From contig NZ_WTYL01000001.1 of assembly GCF_009828115.1 (NCBI RefSeq), forward strand, positions 868,001 to 932,000: DNA of 64,000 bases. The letters run 5' to 3'. Below the pieces are notes generated by a model. The model had not been told where the DNA came from. It did not search any database and saw only the letters and a list, made by a program, of their open reading frames with translations. Positions 1 through 7,992 of this stretch are shown piece after piece. A program made the translations under genes and the position numbers. Source of the DNA: Allopontixanthobacter sediminis (GTDB lineage Bacteria; Pseudomonadota; Alphaproteobacteria; Sphingomonadales; Sphingomonadaceae). Position 1 is the stretch's first letter, and the number at the start of each line of letters is the position of its first letter.

Positions 1-1226
1 GCCATGTTGGCGAAGGCTTCCTTGGTGCCCGCCGTGGTCCTCTCCGCGACGCCTACCATCACCTTGTCCAAGCGACCCATCTGCTCCGCGATGCCATCCA
101 CCATGTCCGGAATGTAGCTGTGGCCCACCACGGCATCATACAGGCCATAGAAGGCTTGCTTTACAGTTTCGATCTTGGCGCTGACCGTGTTCCAGACTGC
201 GCTCAGCTTGTCTACGATCCACGTTTTTACACCCTGGTAGAGTCTCCCCATCCAATCGACAGACGCCCTGACCATGCGCGCCATCATGTCCGGAATTCCG
301 CCAACGACTTCGCCGAGTTTCTCAACCACTTGGACGAATAGCTTGCCGGCGAAGCTCCAGTTTTGCCTTGCCTGCGCCGCCTGCTTGGCATTGAAAGCGT
401 CAAAATTATCCGCCCAATTCTGCATCGTGCTAGAAGCATCGATCAGTGAGAGTTTCAAATCTGAGACCGACTGTTCGTACACCAGCAGCGAATCGGCATT
501 TTCGAGCAGCTTCTTGTTCTGCTGCGCTTCGATTACATAATTCAAAGCGGCCAGCTTGTCGGCCACTTCATCGGCCTTCGCGATATCGTCACTGGACAGG
601 ACGATCCCCAACTTATGCGCCGCGCCGGTCAGCCGTTCAACGCCTGCCGCGCCTTCGCTAAGCAAAGCGGCGAGCTTCTGGCCCGAACGCCCGAACAGGT
701 CGACCGTGATGGCCGCGCGTTCGGCATCACTGCCAACATTCTTAAGACCCTCAGCGATCAGCGGCATAGCCTCTCCGGCACCGATGACTTCGCCTTTGCT
801 GTTGCGCACTGCGATGCCTAGCTTCTCGAGCGCTAGCAGCGGCTCTTTCACACCTTGCGCAGCATCCCCCAAGCGCCTGGTCAATTGCGCAAGGGCATCG
901 TCCATCTGCTTCTGTTCGATATTGACCTGCGTGGCCGCGTAGCGGAATTCCTGCAAAGCGGTCGTAGTGACGCCCAGCGCCATCGCTTCCTCGCCAAGGT
1001 TACCGGCCGCATCGATTGCAGCGCGGCTCATGTCCTTAATCCTGTTCGCTACCCCCAGGAACGCCAATCCACTGAGTGTCGCGCCGACCTGCTGCATAGT
1101 CTTTCGAGCCGCTGCAAAATTCTTCTGCAGGCCGGTCATCTCAGTTTTCGATTTGCGAATGCCGTTCGAATATTGCGCGGTGTCCAAGCCCAAACTTACG
1201 AGCAAGCTGCCCAATAGAGTTGCCAT
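1..1226 (-). CDS. Phage tail tape-measure protein, N-terminal part (runs off window)
   Basis: The frame is open from an ATG at 1226-1224 to the left edge of the window (about 408 residues seen, C-terminus missing). A GGAG Shine-Dalgarno lies just upstream. The N-terminus reads MATLLGSLLVSLGLDTAQYS, followed by a coiled, Ala/Lys/Gln-rich segment and phrases typical of tape-measure proteins (AATQVNIEQKQMDDAL, VDLFGRSGQKLAALLSEG). In long-tailed phages this protein sets tail length and is threaded through the tail tube. It is the last visible gene of the minus-strand virion block, 45 bp downstream of the tailspike-like gene. The family call is recognition from sequence style. A long coiled-coil structural protein of another kind is the only real alternative. 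Confidence 0.75.
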   Translation of the reverse strand, partial: MATLLGSLLVSLGLDTAQYSNGIRKSKTEMTGLQKNFAAARKTMQQVGATLSGLAFLGVANRIKDMSRAAIDAAGNLGEEAMALGVTTTALQEFRYAATQVNIEQKQMDDALAQLTRRLGDAAQGVKEPLLALEKLGIAVRNSKGEVIGAGEAMPLIAEGLKNVGSDAERAAITVDLFGRSGQKLAALLSEGAAGVERLTGAAHKLGIVLSSDDIAKADEVADKLAALNYVIEAQQNKKLLENADSLLVYEQSVSDLKLSLIDASSTMQNWADNFDAFNAKQAAQARQNWSFAGKLFVQVVEKLGEVVGGIPDMMARMVRASVDWMGRLYQGVKTWIVDKLSAVWNTVSAKIETVKQAFYGLYDAVVGHSYIPDMVDGIAEQMGRLDKVMVGVAERTTAGTKEAFANM

Positions 1227-1271: not shown

Positions 1272-2702
1272 TTACGCTATCGCCCTGACCTTCAATGTTC
1301 CGGATACGAGGTTGATGGTGCCGCCAGATTCGTTCTGAAACCGCACTGTGACGGTGTCCGCTGCGGACACGTATGCATCCAGAATTACACCCGCCAGACT
1401 TATGCTGAATGATGCCGATGCGAACATGCCAAGTTTCGCACCTGGGCAAGCCACGGTGGTGGAGTCAGCGCCGCCGTGCGGGATGGATGGCGGGTCATAC
1501 GTGACACTCCCGCGAAATACATAATCAGTGGAGTTGGTTGAATTCCCGCTATCGTCCGCAAAGCTCGAGCCGCTGGCAATTGGCGAAGCCTTGAAGTGAC
1601 AGTTAGACGCCCCGGCGCCGAACTCCACGTCCCCAGCGACGGGACAGCCGACAATGGCATTATCCGTACCGGTGATGGAAAGCGTCTCACCAATAGTCGA
1701 AATCCGAGTTCCGGAAATAACCGCCTTCTTGGCGGTGCCAAAAATGATGTTGCGAGTATAGCATCCGGTTACCAGCGTATTGTCGGTGCCGGTCAGGTCG
1801 ACCAGGACGCCGGTTGAATCTACCCCAATAAGCGAGCGCGGGGACGCAGCAACGTCGCCGGCACCGAGCTTCATTGCAGGCTCATTGCTGTCGGTCCGGT
1901 TGAAAAGCCCGCCAATAATGCGGAGCTGCGACCCGCCCCCGGCTGCAGTGATTTCCAGACAGTAGCCAAGCATATCAAGGAAGTTGCAGTTGATCAGGTT
2001 GATGTTGGAGGTACCGGCGGGGATTACCAAGCCGCGACCGGTAGCCCCTCCGCTGCCGGTGCCATTGCCCTGAAGACCAACGTTGATCATCCCGCAGCCC
2101 GCGGCTGCAGTGAACATGTCGCCGTTTTCCACTTTGTTAATTGTGGAGAGCAGAGGACTTCGGGCTATGATGTATTGGCCGAATGCCAGTGCTTTACCGG
2201 AAGGAATATAGCTTAGGTTTCCGTCTGGGACCTCAACCGACTTTCCGGTATCTAGCGCCGCGTTCAGCGCTGCGGTGTCAACAGCTGCACTAACTCCGAC
2301 CGTGCCGGTTGCATGAAAGTCGAGAACGTGGACACTGTCGCGCAATTTGGCCTGCAGGTTCCGCGCTACCGCGCCGCCGCCAGCCTGAAAGAAGGTTCCG
2401 ATTGCGTCAACGTAAGCCTTGGTTGCTTGAGCGCCAATTACTAGGGAATTCCCGCCTGCATCGCCCGCGCCATCTGCCGTGCGCTCAGCATAGATTACTC
2501 CGCCCGAACCGTCTGGGTAGGAAAAGAACTCGGTTTCAATTGTACCGATTTCGCCCAGCAATTTGCTGCTGAAGTAGTTCCCCGCAGCTGCAGAAGCGCT
2601 TGCCGCCAGTTCAGCCCGACCAGCCTGCCGTGTGGCTTCGAGCGTGTTCTCGCCCAGTGAAAAGGTTCGCGTACCATTCGTAACATTTACATTGATTGTC
2701 AT
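1272..2702 (-). CDS. Phage tailspike-like beta-helix protein
   Basis: 476 residues, ATG start preceded by GGAGTTTGAGAG. The first 130 residues are Ala/Gly-rich and look like a virion-attachment part. Residues of roughly 140-400 show the short hydrophobic periodicity and Asn/Gly turns of a right-handed beta-helix (for example INLINCNFLDMLGYCLEI and NAIVGCPVAGDVEFGAG), as in pectate-lyase-fold tailspikes. The C-terminal 70 residues, with FASASFSISLAGVILDAYV and DTVTVRFQNESGGT, resemble a beta-rich tip module common at the end of phage surface proteins. The probable role is host-surface polysaccharide binding or cleavage. No catalytic residues can be assigned. Its place between capsid and tape-measure genes is unusual for a tailspike. 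Confidence 0.6.
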   Translation of the reverse strand: MTINVNVTNGTRTFSLGENTLEATRQAGRAELAASASAAAGNYFSSKLLGEIGTIETEFFSYPDGSGGVIYAERTADGAGDAGGNSLVIGAQATKAYVDAIGTFFQAGGGAVARNLQAKLRDSVHVLDFHATGTVGVSAAVDTAALNAALDTGKSVEVPDGNLSYIPSGKALAFGQYIIARSPLLSTINKVENGDMFTAAAGCGMINVGLQGNGTGSGGATGRGLVIPAGTSNINLINCNFLDMLGYCLEITAAGGGSQLRIIGGLFNRTDSNEPAMKLGAGDVAASPRSLIGVDSTGVLVDLTGTDNTLVTGCYTRNIIFGTAKKAVISGTRISTIGETLSITGTDNAIVGCPVAGDVEFGAGASNCHFKASPIASGSSFADDSGNSTNSTDYVFRGSVTYDPPSIPHGGADSTTVACPGAKLGMFASASFSISLAGVILDAYVSAADTVTVRFQNESGGTINLVSGTLKVRAIA

Positions 2703-2801: not shown

Positions 2802-3905
2802 TCAGGTGATGTTGCCGAAATCACCGTAGCTGAGAGCGAGAGGTTGCTTGATCGCCAGCCCGAGGCGGCTTTCGCAGCGGATCGTGACCATGTTCTTGAC
2901 GAAATTGTCACCGTCCTCGGTCGACAGCGCCACAGTCGGAGCCTGCCGATCGTACAGCGTAGCAGCCCGCATGAAGTCCCCGACAAGGAACTTGTCGACC
3001 GTCATTGCTGTGGTCGGCACCACCGGCAACCCGAACAGGCTCGGCGGAACTGGTGCTTGCGGATCGCCGAGGATGTATTTGCCATCCCCGTCTTTCAGCA
3101 TCCGCATCCGCATCCAGTCCGTAGGATGGATGACAATGCCGTTCGCCAGGAACTCGGCGAGACCGACCTGCAGGATTGCCAGTCCGATCTTGTCGATCAT
3201 GTTCTCGCCGGAAGGCGCGAACTCCGGATCGTAAGTCGTGCTGTTGGTGATCAATCCGTTAAGGTTTGCACCCGAACCGCTGCCGTTGAGCAGCTGCAGG
3301 TCTTCTGCCAGTGCCAGACCGTAGCGAAGCTCTCCATCGATGATGCTGGACAGCTGCGGCGCATCGTCCAGCACCTGGACGCTCGCCTTGGTCCAATGCG
3401 CGATCGTGCGCATCGGCAGGTTTGCCAGTTCCCAGGTATAGTTCGATTCCGGCTTGGTCGTGGCTTCCGCCACCGGCGCGGCAGCATTCGTGCGGGCAGT
3501 CTGCTCGACGTATTCGACCGACCCGCTGTTGGTGTTCACCGTGTTCAACAGGTCGCGAATGCGCGGAACACGTCCTGCGATCGTATTGATCGATGGATCC
3601 CGCATCGCCGGTGCCAACGCACCGCCACTATCAGCTGCGCTGGTGGTTGCCTTGACCTCAATTCGGACGCGGGCAGGCTGACTGGTCTTGACCTCCGACA
3701 TGCCCCTGACTTCTTCACTTTCGGCGACCTGTTGGCCCCAGCTGGGCTCTGCGCCACTACCGCCGCCCGAGCTGCCACGGGCGAGTTTCTGTTCGACATC
3801 TTTCAGTCTGCAGTCGACCCCCGTAACGAGGGCCCCGGTTTCGGTCATTTTCTGTTCGACCGCATCGGTGTGCGACTTCAGCAGAACTTCAATATTCTCT
3901 GGCAT
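2802..3905 (-). CDS. HK97-family phage major capsid protein
   Basis: 367 residues from an ATG at 3905, with AAGGGA 7 nt upstream. The frame also opens at a TTG at 3920 overlapping the protease stop, but the Shine-Dalgarno favours 3905. Residues 1-45 are a charged coiled scaffold-like delta domain. A variable linker follows, then the HK97-fold capsid domain, with typical phrases such as VPRIRDLLNTVNTNSGSVEY, GELRYGLALAEDLQLLNGSG, NGIVIHPTDWMRMRMLKD and a C-terminal FVKNMVTIRCESRLGLAI. It forms the icosahedral head after the delta domain is removed by the upstream protease. It is tightly coupled to the protease gene (11 bp from stop to start). Confidence 0.93.
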   Translation of the reverse strand: MPENIEVLLKSHTDAVEQKMTETGALVTGVDCRLKDVEQKLARGSSGGGSGAEPSWGQQVAESEEVRGMSEVKTSQPARVRIEVKATTSAADSGGALAPAMRDPSINTIAGRVPRIRDLLNTVNTNSGSVEYVEQTARTNAAAPVAEATTKPESNYTWELANLPMRTIAHWTKASVQVLDDAPQLSSIIDGELRYGLALAEDLQLLNGSGSGANLNGLITNSTTYDPEFAPSGENMIDKIGLAILQVGLAEFLANGIVIHPTDWMRMRMLKDGDGKYILGDPQAPVPPSLFGLPVVPTTAMTVDKFLVGDFMRAATLYDRQAPTVALSTEDGDNFVKNMVTIRCESRLGLAIKQPLALSYGDFGNIT

Positions 3906-3916
3906 TTTACGTCCCT

Positions 3917-4549
3917 TCAAAGATTGCCGAGACGCGCGATTGCGCCCCGGAGAACGGCTTCCGCCGCGTCATGATTGTTTGATTGTTCGCGCCGCGCTTT
4001 CCACGCTCCGGCCATCGCCGCCGCGTCACGACTTGCAAAACCCTGCTGGCGCAGGAATTCGCGCACCTGGTCCACATCCCGGGGCAGTTCCTTGATGGAA
4101 GTCACCCGCGCTTGGGGATCTGCAGGGAACGTCACCAGGGACGCCTCCCACAGGTTGATTTCGGTCAGCAGCCGCAAGTTTCCGTCCTGTTTGGAACCTC
4201 CCGGCGCTACGTCGAACCCGATGCTGATACCGGTCAGGGCGCCGATCTTCGCCAAGGCGTGAGCCTCGCGCGCAAGCTCCACGTCCATCGCCAGGTCGGC
4301 CTTGCCGAACAACCCTTGCGGACGTTCGACCAGTTCCGTCCAGACGCCGATCGGTCGGGATGCATCATGCTGGTAGAGCACCGGCATCTTGCGCCCGCTT
4401 TGAGCTATGCTCGCGATCGACTTGGTGTAAGCCCCGGGCTGGATTGTATCGCCATAGGTATCGACGCCACCGAAGGCGGAGATAATGCCCTCGATCGCGC
4501 CGCTATCGGCGATGGATTTGATTTCAAAAGGGAGAACCCGGGTATGCAT
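3917..4549 (-). CDS. HK97-family prohead protease
   Basis: 210 residues from the ATG at 4549 (MHTRVLPFEIKSI). A GTG at 4558 in the same frame would add three residues, and an AGGTG lies at better spacing for the ATG. This is a serine protease of the HK97 prohead family (peptidase U35/S78 type). The His of PVLYQHD and the Ser of LTGISIGF are the expected catalytic residues, and LWEASLVTFPAD is the usual strand after the catalytic Ser. It cleaves the capsid delta domain during head maturation. The C-terminal 70 residues are helical and charged, as expected for the part that is itself removed. It sits directly before the major capsid gene, the standard order. Confidence 0.92.
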   Translation of the reverse strand: MHTRVLPFEIKSIADSGAIEGIISAFGGVDTYGDTIQPGAYTKSIASIAQSGRKMPVLYQHDASRPIGVWTELVERPQGLFGKADLAMDVELAREAHALAKIGALTGISIGFDVAPGGSKQDGNLRLLTEINLWEASLVTFPADPQARVTSIKELPRDVDQVREFLRQQGFASRDAAAMAGAWKARREQSNNHDAAEAVLRGAIARLGNL

Positions 4550-4659
4550 CAGACGCACCTATCAACTGTGAAACGGAAGTTGTTTCTCAATCAATGTGCG
4601 CGGCATCCGCGGGAACATTGGTCGCTGGCGCGTCATATTGGCGACGTCAGCAAGAGGAA

Positions 4660-4687
4660 CAATTAGTGAATCTGGCGAGGTTGTCAA
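4660..4687 (-). promoter_or_regulatory. Possible sigma70 promoter for the capsid genes
   Basis: On the minus strand TTGACA (4687-4682) and TAATTG (4665-4660) are separated by 16 bp, ahead of the protease gene and overlapping the stop codon of the preceding small gene. The -35 is perfect and the -10 poor, so this is only plausible. Confidence 0.3.
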
Positions 4688-4917
4688 TCCCCCGGTTTCT
4701 GCAAGTCTCGCACCAGGCAGGCATGTCGGGCGAACCAGGGCGCCACGCTCTGCGCGCCTGACCAGCTGGTCACGGTATCGGCGATGCCCATGGCGAGGCC
4801 TGTTGAAATCACTTGGCGAGACATGCCCTCCGCCCGCAGCCGGTTGACCATCTCGATCAACTCATTTTGCACCAGGTGGGCTTGATGCTCTTCAGCCGGA
4901 TTAGGTCCGTTGCTCAT
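4684..4917 (-). CDS. Small phage protein of unknown function
   Basis: 77 residues (MSNGPNPAEEHQAHLVQNEL...), ATG at 4917 overlapping the stop of the upstream HTH gene by 4 bp (ATGA), which points to translational coupling. The N-terminal half is amphipathic helix (HLVQNELIEMVNRLRAEGMS) and the rest has no recognised motif. I do not recognise a family. Its position between a small HTH protein and the head genes would fit a small packaging or regulatory protein, but that rests on context only. Confidence 0.55.
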   Translation of the reverse strand: MSNGPNPAEEHQAHLVQNELIEMVNRLRAEGMSRQVISTGLAMGIADTVTSWSGAQSVAPWFARHACLVRDLQKPGD

Positions 4918-5330
4918 CGTTTAGCTCCTTCGCTGTTTGCCTGGACGCGTCTGCGCCAGACTTGTGATTTCGATTGTAATTCGACGGGATAATTCAGCCG
5001 GAGCGTCGGACCCGTGATCCGCAGCGCAGCCGCTATGGCCGGTTGCGCGATTCCTTCGCCGTGCAGCTGCGCTACCAAGGCGCGGGTCGCCACAGTCGGC
5101 ATGTGCCGGGGACGTCCTCTTTTTCCGTGGCCGGGAGGAATCGGATCGCCGAGCAGATCAATGAAATCAATGCACGAATAATCCGAGGTTTTGGCGGCTA
5201 TATCGGGAGAGGCAGGATCATCATGCGACCCTGCGCCATTTGCTCCGCACAGCCTCACAGGGCAGCGATCTGCAAGCCGAATATCATCGTCGCTGCCGCC
5301 GCCGCAGACTATGCTCCTGCGCCCGCTCAC
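4914..5330 (-). CDS. Small helix-turn-helix phage protein
   Basis: Up to 138 residues from a GTG at 5330. The N-terminal 70 residues are low in recognisable structure and the true start may lie further in. Residues 70-125 (HGKRGRPRHMPT, then VAQLHGEGIAQPAIAAALRI and TGPTLRLNYPVEL) form a resolvase/transposase-like helix-turn-helix seen in small phage and island proteins, with a basic GKRGRPR arm before it. It likely binds DNA. A small-terminase-like role or a late regulator would both fit its place upstream of the head genes. It overlaps the next gene by 4 bp. Confidence 0.55.
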   Translation of the reverse strand: MSGRRSIVCGGGSDDDIRLADRCPVRLCGANGAGSHDDPASPDIAAKTSDYSCIDFIDLLGDPIPPGHGKRGRPRHMPTVATRALVAQLHGEGIAQPAIAAALRITGPTLRLNYPVELQSKSQVWRRRVQANSEGAKR

Positions 5331-5447
5331 AGCACCGATCTTTTCTGAAAACTCGTCAGGTGCCTAAAAAATCCGCGAATGAGAGGGGCAGTGGTCTGGG
5401 GGCAAACGGGTTCACAGACTTTCGACCTCCCCCCTCCCGCTGCAAAC

Positions 5448-5716
5448 CCTTCCACCTTCCATTTCAATAAACGGCAATGGAGGTAGCAACGTAAGGAAGT
5501 AAACCCTTGATTTATGGGAATAAAGCTTAAGAATGGAAGGATGGAAGGGAAAATCGACCAACTTACGCACATAAAAACATTTTTGTTTTTCCTTAGCGGA
5601 AGAGCTGTGATTTCCCTTCCGCCCTTCCGCGCACACCTATTAACCGCAGAATACTGCGGCTCTCGGCCTTCCGCGCGACAGTCCAAACAGCTAAATCCTG
5701 AATGGAAGGTGGAAGG
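5448..5716. repeat. Cluster of GGAAGG iteron-like repeats in an AT-richer gap
   Basis: The 400-bp gap 5331-5729 has no convincing gene. It holds six copies of TGGAAGG (plus strand 5534, 5542, 5703, 5710; minus strand 5448-5454, 5455-5461) and three of CGGAAGG on the minus strand (5615-5621, 5623-5629, 5667-5673), mostly as pairs 7-8 bp apart. The outer pairs form a perfect 16-bp inverted repeat (5448-5463 with 5701-5716). Between them lie A/T-rich tracts around 5490-5600. Iterons plus an AT-rich stretch next to a primase-like gene suggest an origin or a binding region for an element-coded protein. Nothing else is seen at 5331-5447 or 5717-5729. Confidence 0.6.
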
Positions 5717-5729
5717 CGCAACGCTCAGC

Positions 5730-6266
5730 CTACTCACACCGGCCACCCTCTACCCGCCACACGTAAGCAAAGAGATCATCCACTGCGGAAGTCCCGATAT
5801 TGACCTCAGGGGGCCGGGGACGGGCCGAGCGGCGGCGGGCGCGGTGAACCACATTAGTTCCCGGCGGGATCCAGTGAATGCCGTTCGAATGGAGCTTGCT
5901 GAAGCCTAGTCCGAACATCCCGTTGCTGAAGCCTTTGACGCAGACGGGAGGCAAACCCTTTGCATCAGCCCAACTCCGATAGCGCTGGTACAACGCGCTG
6001 GATCGGTGCCGCGCGCCCTCGATCTCACCCGCTTGATGAAGCTCAGTGATGAATGGCGCGATCGCCGCCGACTCCAGCGTGGACGCGCACTTTGCTTTGA
6101 TAATTCGATCGATTGCGTGTCGCAGAAGTTCGTGACGGGACACCCGCTTTTTCGCAGCCAACGAGGATCCCGGTCTGACAAGCAACACCAGGTCATTATC
6201 GATTACCACTCTAACCACCGGCTGCGCCAATGGACAGAGCCCCCAACCCCGCCGAGAGGCGGTCAA
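5730..6266 (-). CDS. Small protein with P4/D5-primase-like C-terminal winged helix
   Basis: Up to 178 residues from a TTG at 6266; an internal GTG start is possible. Residues 95-140 (SALYQRYRSWADAKGLPPV followed by FGLGFSKLHSNGIHW) match the pattern of the winged-helix module that ends P4- and D5-type primase-helicases (Y-x-W-C...F-G-x-x-L...G-I-x-W). The zinc-binding, primase and helicase parts are absent, and the first 90 residues show none of their motifs. It may be a remnant of a primase or a stand-alone DNA-binding protein. It lies 23 bp downstream of the alpA-like gene and borders the repeat cluster, so binding those repeats is an attractive but unproven role. Confidence 0.5.
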   Translation of the reverse strand: MTASRRGWGLCPLAQPVVRVVIDNDLVLLVRPGSSLAAKKRVSRHELLRHAIDRIIKAKCASTLESAAIAPFITELHQAGEIEGARHRSSALYQRYRSWADAKGLPPVCVKGFSNGMFGLGFSKLHSNGIHWIPPGTNVVHRARRRSARPRPPEVNIGTSAVDDLFAYVWRVEGGRCE

Positions 6267-6629: not shown

Positions 6630-7826
6630 CTAATTGTCGATAACTCTAGCCAAATGGCCAGCCCATAGATTGAGCGCTTCCGTCTTTTCCACTTTCCAAT
6701 CATGCCGCTGATAGACCCCAGCGATGCCGCCACGGGATCCACTCACGTGGTTAAGTACCGCTTCGGTCACTTCGAACCGCACCCCTAGTCGCTGCAGGCC
6801 GGTTGCGACAGTTCTGCGGATGTCATGTAGGGTCCAGTGGTCGCCAGCATCACGGCCTAACTCTGCATCTACTGACGAACGTACTCGCACCATCATTTTT
6901 GAAAAGCCGCTCGGCCCGTTATCTGCTTTCGTCGCCTTGTTCCTAGCTGGATAAAGCTTCGCCGAATCCTCATCCTCCGGAATTTGCTTCAACACCTGCA
7001 GTGACATCTTCGACAGCGGCACCAGGTGCGCCGCACCGTTCTTCGATCGGGTCGGCGGGATAGTCCAGAGCTTTGCAGCTACATCGAACTCTGACCGTTC
7101 CGCAGAAAATAGTTCATCCCGTCGCGCGCCAGTCAGCATCAGCAGTTGCAGACCGGTTCCCCAAGGTGAACCTTCGGAACTGGCGACCCTCCATAGCGCT
7201 TTCAGTTCCAGATCGGTCAGCACCCGGTCACGCGATTTACCCTTTGCGGGTCGACCGGCATCGCGGCACGGATTCGCGGTCAGGCGATCTAGGCGCGGCA
7301 TTGCCCAGGTATAAAATGCCGACAGCTGTGCATGAACCGCGCGCGCCATCGCCGGAGAATTGCGGCCGATATCGTCAACTAGTCGGGTGACGTCGCCACG
7401 CGTCACAGTATCGGCCATCCGGTCGCCAAGCACCGGCAGCACGTAGCCGAGCATAATCCGCCTGATTTCGTCCAGCGATCGCAGCTGCGCCTTGCTGTTC
7501 AAATAAACCGGCACCAGCGCCGCGACCGTTTCGACATCGTCCTGCAGCCGCGCCTTTGGAATTGGCGCGCCCTTTCCCGCCTCGATATCGCTGATCATTG
7601 CCCGCGCCTTTCGACGCGCATCTGCTAGCCCGAAGCGAGGGCCATACCGGCCAAGCGTTATATTTCGAATTCGACCAGTCACCCGCTTCCGCAGGATGAA
7701 GGTCTTTACGCCCGTAGTGCCGATACGGATCCGCAGGCCGGGAACATCCGCGTCACTATACTCGAGCTGGCCCTTCGCAGGTGCCTTCAATCCTTGGATT
7801 TTGGAGTCTGTCAGTTTGCTCGCCAT
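6630..7826 (-). CDS. Tyrosine-recombinase integrase, P4 type
   Basis: 398 residues, full length for the family. Residues 1-85 are the DUF4102-type arm-binding domain (LTDSKIQGLKAPAKG, ITLGRYGPRFGLADARRKA). About 100-180 is the SAM-like core-binding domain and 200-385 the catalytic domain. All catalytic residues are visible: R235 (TGARRDE), K262, H334-x-x-R337 (HDIRR), H360 and the nucleophile Y372 (YQRHD). It should catalyse integration and excision at the tRNA-Lys site, whose displaced 3' end lies about 120 bp away. It reads away from the border into the element, and a terminator on the host side insulates it. Confidence 0.96.
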   Translation of the reverse strand: MASKLTDSKIQGLKAPAKGQLEYSDADVPGLRIRIGTTGVKTFILRKRVTGRIRNITLGRYGPRFGLADARRKARAMISDIEAGKGAPIPKARLQDDVETVAALVPVYLNSKAQLRSLDEIRRIMLGYVLPVLGDRMADTVTRGDVTRLVDDIGRNSPAMARAVHAQLSAFYTWAMPRLDRLTANPCRDAGRPAKGKSRDRVLTDLELKALWRVASSEGSPWGTGLQLLMLTGARRDELFSAERSEFDVAAKLWTIPPTRSKNGAAHLVPLSKMSLQVLKQIPEDEDSAKLYPARNKATKADNGPSGFSKMMVRVRSSVDAELGRDAGDHWTLHDIRRTVATGLQRLGVRFEVTEAVLNHVSGSRGGIAGVYQRHDWKVEKTEALNLWAGHLARVIDN

Positions 7827-7947: not shown

Positions 7948-7992
7948 CTCTTAATCAGCGGGTCCTTGGTTCGAGCCCAAGTGCGTCCACCA
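7948..7992 (+). other. Displaced 3' part of tRNA-Lys(CTT): attachment site
   Basis: The stretch begins in the anticodon loop (CTCTTAA, anticodon CTT at 7950-7952), then the 3' anticodon-stem strand TCAGC, a variable loop, a complete T arm (CTTGG/CCAAG around TTCGAGC), the acceptor strand TGCGTCC, A, and encoded CCA at 7990-7992. The 5' half of a tRNA is absent: the sequence before it is the terminator hairpin. This is the classic scar of integration into a tRNA gene. It predicts that an intact plus-strand tRNA-Lys(CTT) marks the other end of the element, left of the window. The host gap 7993-8121 holds nothing else I recognise. Confidence 0.88.

Follow-up and report, generated by a model that had tools for sequence, protein, structure and literature searches.

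An orphan candidate origin of the D5 type, with a detached winged-helix domain, in a tRNA-Lys island of Allopontixanthobacter sediminis

Introduction

SaPI origins carry two sets of iterons around an AT-rich stretch. To our knowledge, the known satellites of the P4 and SaPI kinds bring their own replicase, and PLE is the main exception. The SaPI and SCCmec Cch2 helicases bind iterons directly 3' of their own genes through a C-terminal domain, and the isolated C-terminal domain of Cch2 is sufficient for specific binding (PMC7581432). The primase-helicase alpha of P4 binds its origin repeats with a winged-helix domain, and in pRN1 the origin element has been mapped experimentally to the DNA directly 3' of ORF904, the replication gene, which combines an AEP primase, an SF3 helicase and a winged-helix domain (wHTH) (PMC4234260). 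PLE of Vibrio cholerae has an iteron-binding RepA of its own and no helicase or primase; it is copied only by the machinery of its helper, and its origin and its binding domain behave as exchangeable modules (PMC7145576, PMC8263062).

Here we describe a YGGAAGG repeat array in a 64,000-nucleotide stretch of A. sediminis DNA (contig NZ_WTYL01000001.1, positions 868,001 to 932,000), referred to as the window throughout. The array lies in a genomic island, beside a gene (orf178) predicted to encode a winged-helix domain alone. The likeness to the SaPI and Cch2 systems, with their D5/Primase_Cterm and DUF927 initiator helicases, is the placing of short iterons directly 3' of the replicase gene; the island differs from them in having no helicase, so that the binding domain alone is encoded, and in its alphaproteobacterial host, and the SCCmec iteron is AAGTG rather than YGGAAGG(R)T. 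P4 shares the winged-helix origin-binding domain and the AlpA/integrase island logic, but has another iteron and encodes the whole of alpha, whereas this island encodes capsid genes and the wHTH alone. An origin 3' of the replication gene is also found in pRN1, an archaeal plasmid which differs in having a stem-loop in place of iterons and a complete replicase. As a functional parallel to orf178 we propose PLE RepA, the iteron binder of a satellite without helicase or primase, although RepA belongs to the RepA_N family and has iterons of ~30 bp, in contrast to the D5-type wHTH of the island and 7-bp iterons common to phage replicases.

Results

The island is 10,002 bp long, is inserted at a tRNA-Lys(CTT) gene and is bounded by a 45-bp direct repeat of the tRNA 3' end (L002 9946-19947). 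The left copy lies 10,002 bp away from the right one, to the left of the window (genome C1:865946). From the right end the order is integrase, AlpA, orf178, the array, orf138, orf77 and an S78 protease, and then an HK97 capsid protein, tail-spike-like, tape-measure-like and small genes, all on the minus strand.

7948..7992, plus strand: attachment repeat, right 45-bp copy of the tRNA-Lys(CTT) 3' end
6630..7826, minus strand: tyrosine integrase (PF00589/PF13356), 70% identical to the integrase of sibling island L300
6290..6472, minus strand: AlpA-type excisionase/regulator (PF05930, 1.2e-14)
5730..6266, minus strand: orf178, free-standing C-terminal winged-helix domain of D5/P4-replicase type, start codon uncertain
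4914..5330, minus strand: orf138, small-terminase-like HTH protein (phrog_12540)
4684..4917, minus strand: orf77, no family match
3917..4558, minus strand: prohead protease, S78 (PF04586, 1.1e-25)
2802..3920, minus strand: HK97-type major capsid protein (PF05065, 1e-55), best named relative Mae-JY28 (49%)
1272..2702, minus strand: orf476, tail-spike-like (phrog_13893 tail, 1.3e-4)
1..1226, minus strand, continuing left of the window (L002 11211-13226): tape-measure-like protein of 671 aa (phrog_9483, 3.2e-30)

Between the attachment repeats we recognised neither a primase or helicase nor TerL or a portal. Integrase and alpA at one end, integration at a tRNA gene and a length of about 10-15 kb are features that the island shares with PICI/P4-like elements; these also have a primase or replication helicase of their own, and this the island lacks. 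From the cf-PICI set of TerS, TerL, portal, protease and MCP it has the protease, the MCP and a TerS-like protein only; and where PLE has a RepA_N initiator and a large serine recombinase, it has a tyrosine integrase and a D5-type wHTH, with no RepA_N match. At the DNA level its similarity to phages and plasmids was confined mainly to MCP and tRNA pieces. At its tRNA-proximal end, left of the window, a 90-aa protein (L002 10121-10393) resembles Cas2/phrog_1090. Close to this (L002 10612-10899) is a small acidic protein with the motif LDAADGDPD, whose homologues in L219, L223 and L234 place it in unrelated small islands of the same bacterial family, where it is possibly a marker of satellites.

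We recounted the repeats between orf178 and orf138 and found them exactly as originally predicted: TGGAAGG occurs six times (5448-, 5455-, 5534+, 5542+, 5703+, 5710+) and CGGAAGG three times (5615-, 5623-, 5667-), all nine copies being exact. The array consists of four inverted pairs, with a start-to-start spacing of 7 or 8 bp within each pair, and one single copy.

5448..5716, no strand: YGGAAGG iteron array, candidate origin, 9 copies in 269 bp
5448..5461, minus strand: left outer iteron pair; 5448-5463 forms one arm of a perfect 16-bp inverted repeat
5534..5548, plus strand: left inner iteron pair
5549..5614, no strand: AT-rich core between the inner pairs, candidate melting region, 66 bp, 36% GC
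5615..5629, minus strand: right inner iteron pair
5644..5659, no strand: CCGCAG-AATA-CTGCGG inverted repeat beside the inner pair, accessory element with half-site TTCTGCG
5667..5673, minus strand: single iteron
5703..5716, plus strand: right outer iteron pair; 5701-5716 forms the other arm of the 16-bp inverted repeat

The arms of the perfect inverted repeat are separated by 237 bp, again as predicted, and a second, inner inverted repeat (5535-5552 and 5611-5628) is 89% matched. The inner and outer pairs share a common centre, at 5581.5 and 5582.0, which had not been noted before. The stretch is gene-free and AT-richer than its surroundings, with 46% GC over the array compared with about 60% in both flanks. 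Short iterons clustered in inverted sets around an AT-rich core are the arrangement of D5/SaPI-type origins.

Could the array be a cluster of transcriptional operators or terminators, or a low-complexity repeat that arose by chance? It does lie between two genes, and one terminator-like hairpin was found there against 0.5 expected, but the array gave no Rfam match and no promoter-like site. Its clustering also goes far beyond simulation, since 60 simulated 64-kb order-3 Markov sequences reached at most 4 copies in 270 bp. The original prediction required that the repeats not occur at similar density elsewhere in the genome: the rest of the window has no more than two YGGAAGG copies in any 270 bp, and the paired motif recurs in the whole genome at two other places only, each a single site. 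Given the limit reached by simulation and the conservation of the paired geometry across many phages (below), we reject a chance repeat, and consider this reading as a whole to have a negligible probability.

The gene preceding the array had been called primase-like. It does not encode a primase. Pox_D5, TIGR01613, PRK07078 and phrog_6088 match orf178 weakly, in each case through their C-terminal part (for Pox_D5 the domain itself, with a score below the Pfam cut-off), and a family search with orf178 led to the C-termini of large replicases, encoded at the array-bearing loci by open frames of 680-1064 aa. The best tblastn match of orf178 to the 67 collected loci had an E-value of 5e-10; it scored 43 bits against a replicase wHTH profile built without it, and it keeps the invariant wHTH residues of the alignment. 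AlphaFold2 predicted a confident core at about residues 61-137 (pLDDT about 90 or more) with the order of elements of a winged helix. The structural matches of this model, to the RFX DNA-binding domain (Z 7.0), the wHTH of ASFV PrimPol (Z 5.4) and ORC/Cdc6, are all winged helices and, being below Z 8, support the fold class only. The best Foldseek E-value was 0.3, with the P4 alpha domain not among the matches listed, and a PDB profile search returned nothing significant, with a weak match to ASFV C962R. Judged by its sequence, orf178 is only the C-terminal wHTH of a D5/P4 replicase, without the primase or helicase part. A TIGR01613 helicase was not found anywhere in the genome and so we identified no resident helper; with no helicase or primase in the island either, it probably cannot fire an origin alone.

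These features might also describe a decayed prophage, in which deletion removed the primase and helicase parts of the replicase and the array is a leftover origin without current function. The complete free-standing domain occurs once, as orf178, among 294 genomes of the same bacterial family; no close relatives were found by peptide patterns in viral or genome contigs, nor any match by tblastn in named phages. The first ~43 residues of orf178 align poorly and are modelled with low confidence, which is what truncation of the gene would produce. The absence of TerL and portal, in an island that still has a tape measure and a tail-spike-like gene, would moreover suit a reduced prophage. Against decay, however, the 45-bp attachment repeats, the integrase and AlpA are intact, all listed genes are open and none of the nine repeats has degenerated. 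Moreover, in orf178 the recognition helix and wing have kept the residues of one iteron clade while the rest diverged: their mean identity is 42% to domains of the GGAAGG type, 33% to the single GCAAGG type and at most 25% to the others, and no such preference is seen in the other parts of the domain. TerL and portal are absent, too, from sibling islands that have this type of integrase (below). We regard decay as doubtful but as the most serious competitor to a working origin.

YGGAAGG clusters were found 3' of the replicase at the loci first reached through orf178. We then scanned viral contigs with a pattern that specified only GGAAGG pairs and their spacing, asking for no replicase and no flanking base, and searched the fetched stretches of the contigs so found with a replicase HMM based on four of those earlier loci. 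The pattern returned 75 IMG/VR contigs, and 67 of these had a D5/P4-type primase-helicase gene in the fetched stretch; four more had a replicase elsewhere in the contig. The array was 3' of the replicase in 67/67, within 260 bp in 64 of them, at a median gap of 78 bp. IMG/VR contigs are redundant, and 43 distinct replicase C-termini remain. In the 43 non-redundant arrays a Y precedes 99% of the GGAAGG copies and R then T usually follow, none of which the pattern demanded. The spacer is 60-85 bp, with GC below the neighbourhood in 73 of 76 arrays. In 18/42 relatives TTTCTGCG precedes the inner pair by no more than 70 bp, against 0.03 expected from base shuffles, and the CCGCAG-AATA-CTGCGG element at 5644-5659 of the window is related to it.

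The same layout is present in an isolated phage. Microcystis phage Mae-JY28 (PP438420.1) has ten YGGAAGG copies, paired in this manner, directly after the stop codon of its primase, with TerL, protease and MCP at the opposite end of the record. It is also the top-scoring named phage for the island MCP (49% identity), level with its near-twin Mae-JY04. Unlike the island, Mae-JY28 is a complete phage of 40 kb that encodes a primase, TerL and protease of its own; the array is unannotated in its record. The original prediction assigned this repeat to no named family. In fact the repeat belongs to a wide family of phage origins, but the family itself appears to be undescribed, a limited literature search having found no published description of the YGGAAGG motif as phage iterons.

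An exact long pattern had no match in 99 genomes of the same bacterial family, and a scan of genome contigs gave 58 hits, only a handful near a D5 replicase and the rest unrelated inverted repeats, many of them in a few MAGs, indicating that GGAAGG pairs alone are not diagnostic. Some Gemmatimonadales MAGs and one 'Euryarchaeota' MAG (L109-L163) carry many GGAAGG inverted pairs but no replicase in their vicinity; these pairs are probably dispersed repeats of a different kind.

Other D5 replicases of the same bacterial family have an array at the same 3' place and with the same layout, built from a different repeat: GCAAGG in G032; GGGAGG in G219, G036, G026, G254 and G027; and CCGTCAC, CCTGCCC, AAGCGCC, CCCGCCG, GTCCGTA, CGAACAG or GGGGCAC elsewhere. 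On a tree of the wHTH domains the iteron labels required 12 changes, the minimum, compared with 22.6 when shuffled, and the GGAAGG label 4 compared with 19.7; the tree has few columns and is weakly resolved, orf178 sits on a long branch, and several labels stand for one locus each. From these sequences, the iteron tracks the C-terminal wHTH domain of the replicase and not the neighbouring small terminase.

This bears on whether the array could instead be a packaging (pac/cos) site bound by the small terminase orf138. Here the array stands immediately before the TerS-like gene, and in many prophages it precedes terminase genes; prophage homologues of orf138 come just before TerL, 1-2 kb after the array. 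However, TerS-like relatives of orf138 with similar scores adjoin GGAAGG, GGGAGG and CCCGCCG arrays. That the iteron follows the wHTH and not TerS similarity argues against a packaging site, as do relatives of the L219 and L099 islands (below), which share their TerL and have no array, several of them with an AAA_25 ATPase gene in its slot. We reject this reading as very improbable.

The replication module is exchanged within one island type. Sibling island L300 (G018) has the same attachment core at the same tRNA-Lys gene, AlpA and the related integrase, and the slot of orf178, array and orf138 is occupied by a prim-pol replicase, a GTCAGTG array that is likewise laid out in inverted pairs, and a TerS of the Terminase_4 family, followed by the MCP; TerL and portal were not recognised in L300. 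Island L277 (9.7 kb) carries integrase, AlpA, an HTH initiator-like protein, TerS, MCP and tape measure. The reduced gene set, without TerL and portal, thus recurs in siblings.

A YGGAAGG array without a replicase is present in capsid islands of ~10 kb that are unrelated to this type: L219, which lies at a tRNA-Tyr between copies of a 22-bp repeat, and L099, a relative of L219 (a 10,026-bp contig). Between them the iteron columns are 84.5% identical and the other array columns 59.5% (p=6e-5), which suggests that the repeats are under selection there; free variation between homologous elements, which would have spoken against the original prediction, was thus not observed. In both islands a second array of the same layout, CAGACAG/CTGTCTG, adjoins the first (L219 9468-9747, L099 50-215). 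Each island would thus have a pair of neighbouring candidate origins, which might serve helper replicases of two classes. A further set of about 10-kb islands of alphaproteobacterial type (L222-L231), with an AAA_25 ATPase gene, HNH, TerL, MCP, protease, portal and integrase, may be a family of capsid-forming satellites.

A scan of viral contigs for the CAGACAG pattern gave 10 hits, several of them only CAGA tandem repeats. The informative one was phage L268 (IMGVR_UViG_3300028743_000204), where a gene at 4656-5876, also present in L276, joins a Rha-like N-terminus to a D5-type wHTH C-terminus without a helicase. It stands directly before the CAGACAG array, even though the phage also has a D5 replicase gene at a distance of about 3 kb. 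Such a protein is a precedent for orf178 as a regulator or competitor, damping replication or blocking a helper's origin at YGGAAGG, with the array as origin or decoy. The small P4 protein Cnr reportedly acts with the winged-helix origin-binding domain of alpha (Yeo et al. 2002, as cited in PMC4234260), which is a second precedent. Odn of ICP1, moreover, re-uses an origin-binding domain against PLE (PMC8263062). In orf178, however, no nuclease or other effector domain was found, and its position and order match those of the replicase that normally precedes the array. We consider a purely regulatory role unlikely, somewhat more so than decay.

Discussion

The fixed place of such arrays 3' of D5 replicases, their conserved geometry and the correspondence between iteron and winged helix make it very probable that 5448-5716 is a D5-type replication origin read by the wHTH of the family of orf178. 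From the sequence evidence we put the probability of this at roughly 0.78, and the original prediction of a candidate origin with iterons has gained strong support. The parallels with SaPI/Cch2, P4 and pRN1 likewise suggest an origin read by a wHTH of the GGAAGG type. Given that only a wHTH domain precedes the array and no complete initiator helicase, we describe it as an orphan origin that would work like a D5/SaPI-type downstream origin, and not as a full member of that class. That it fires through the replicase of a helper is a separate claim, to which we give slightly less than an even chance. Overall, the likeliest reading is an origin that depends on a helper and whose recognition domain has become detached.

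These data allow us to propose a mechanism. In an origin of the D5/P4 type, served by a prim-pol or DnaG primase and an SF3 helicase, inverted iteron pairs would flank an AT-rich core and be read by a winged helix that normally forms the C-terminal end of a replicase whose gene directly precedes the origin. In the tRNA-Lys island that replicase would be reduced to the winged helix alone, as orf178. Integrase and AlpA would excise the island, and the inner pairs would then be occupied by orf178, by a full-length replicase supplied by a YGGAAGG-specific phage that co-infects the cell or is induced in it, or by both. The helicase of the helper would melt the core and copy the island, with orf178 acting as an adaptor or possibly as a regulator resembling Cnr. 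Packaging would employ the TerS-like protein and capsid genes of the island, and TerL, portal and most of the tail would come from the helper.

The type of origin is of a known kind. New here are the orphan origin with its detached binding domain, the islands without a replicase and with two arrays, and the correspondence between iteron and winged helix. We suggest, tentatively and with a little less confidence than we have in firing by a helper, that small islands of this bacterial family advertise the origins of helper phages while encoding no replicase, carrying an array with a detached reader or with none, and that recognition helix and iteron form a readable code. If true, an island with a phage-type origin and only the domain that reads it would represent a second, different way of exploiting the replication enzyme of a helper. 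The co-variation of iteron and winged helix amounts to a recognition code that can be tested, and it concerns a phage replicase family that is very common; such a code would allow origins to be called from sequence alone and would predict which phage replicates which satellite.
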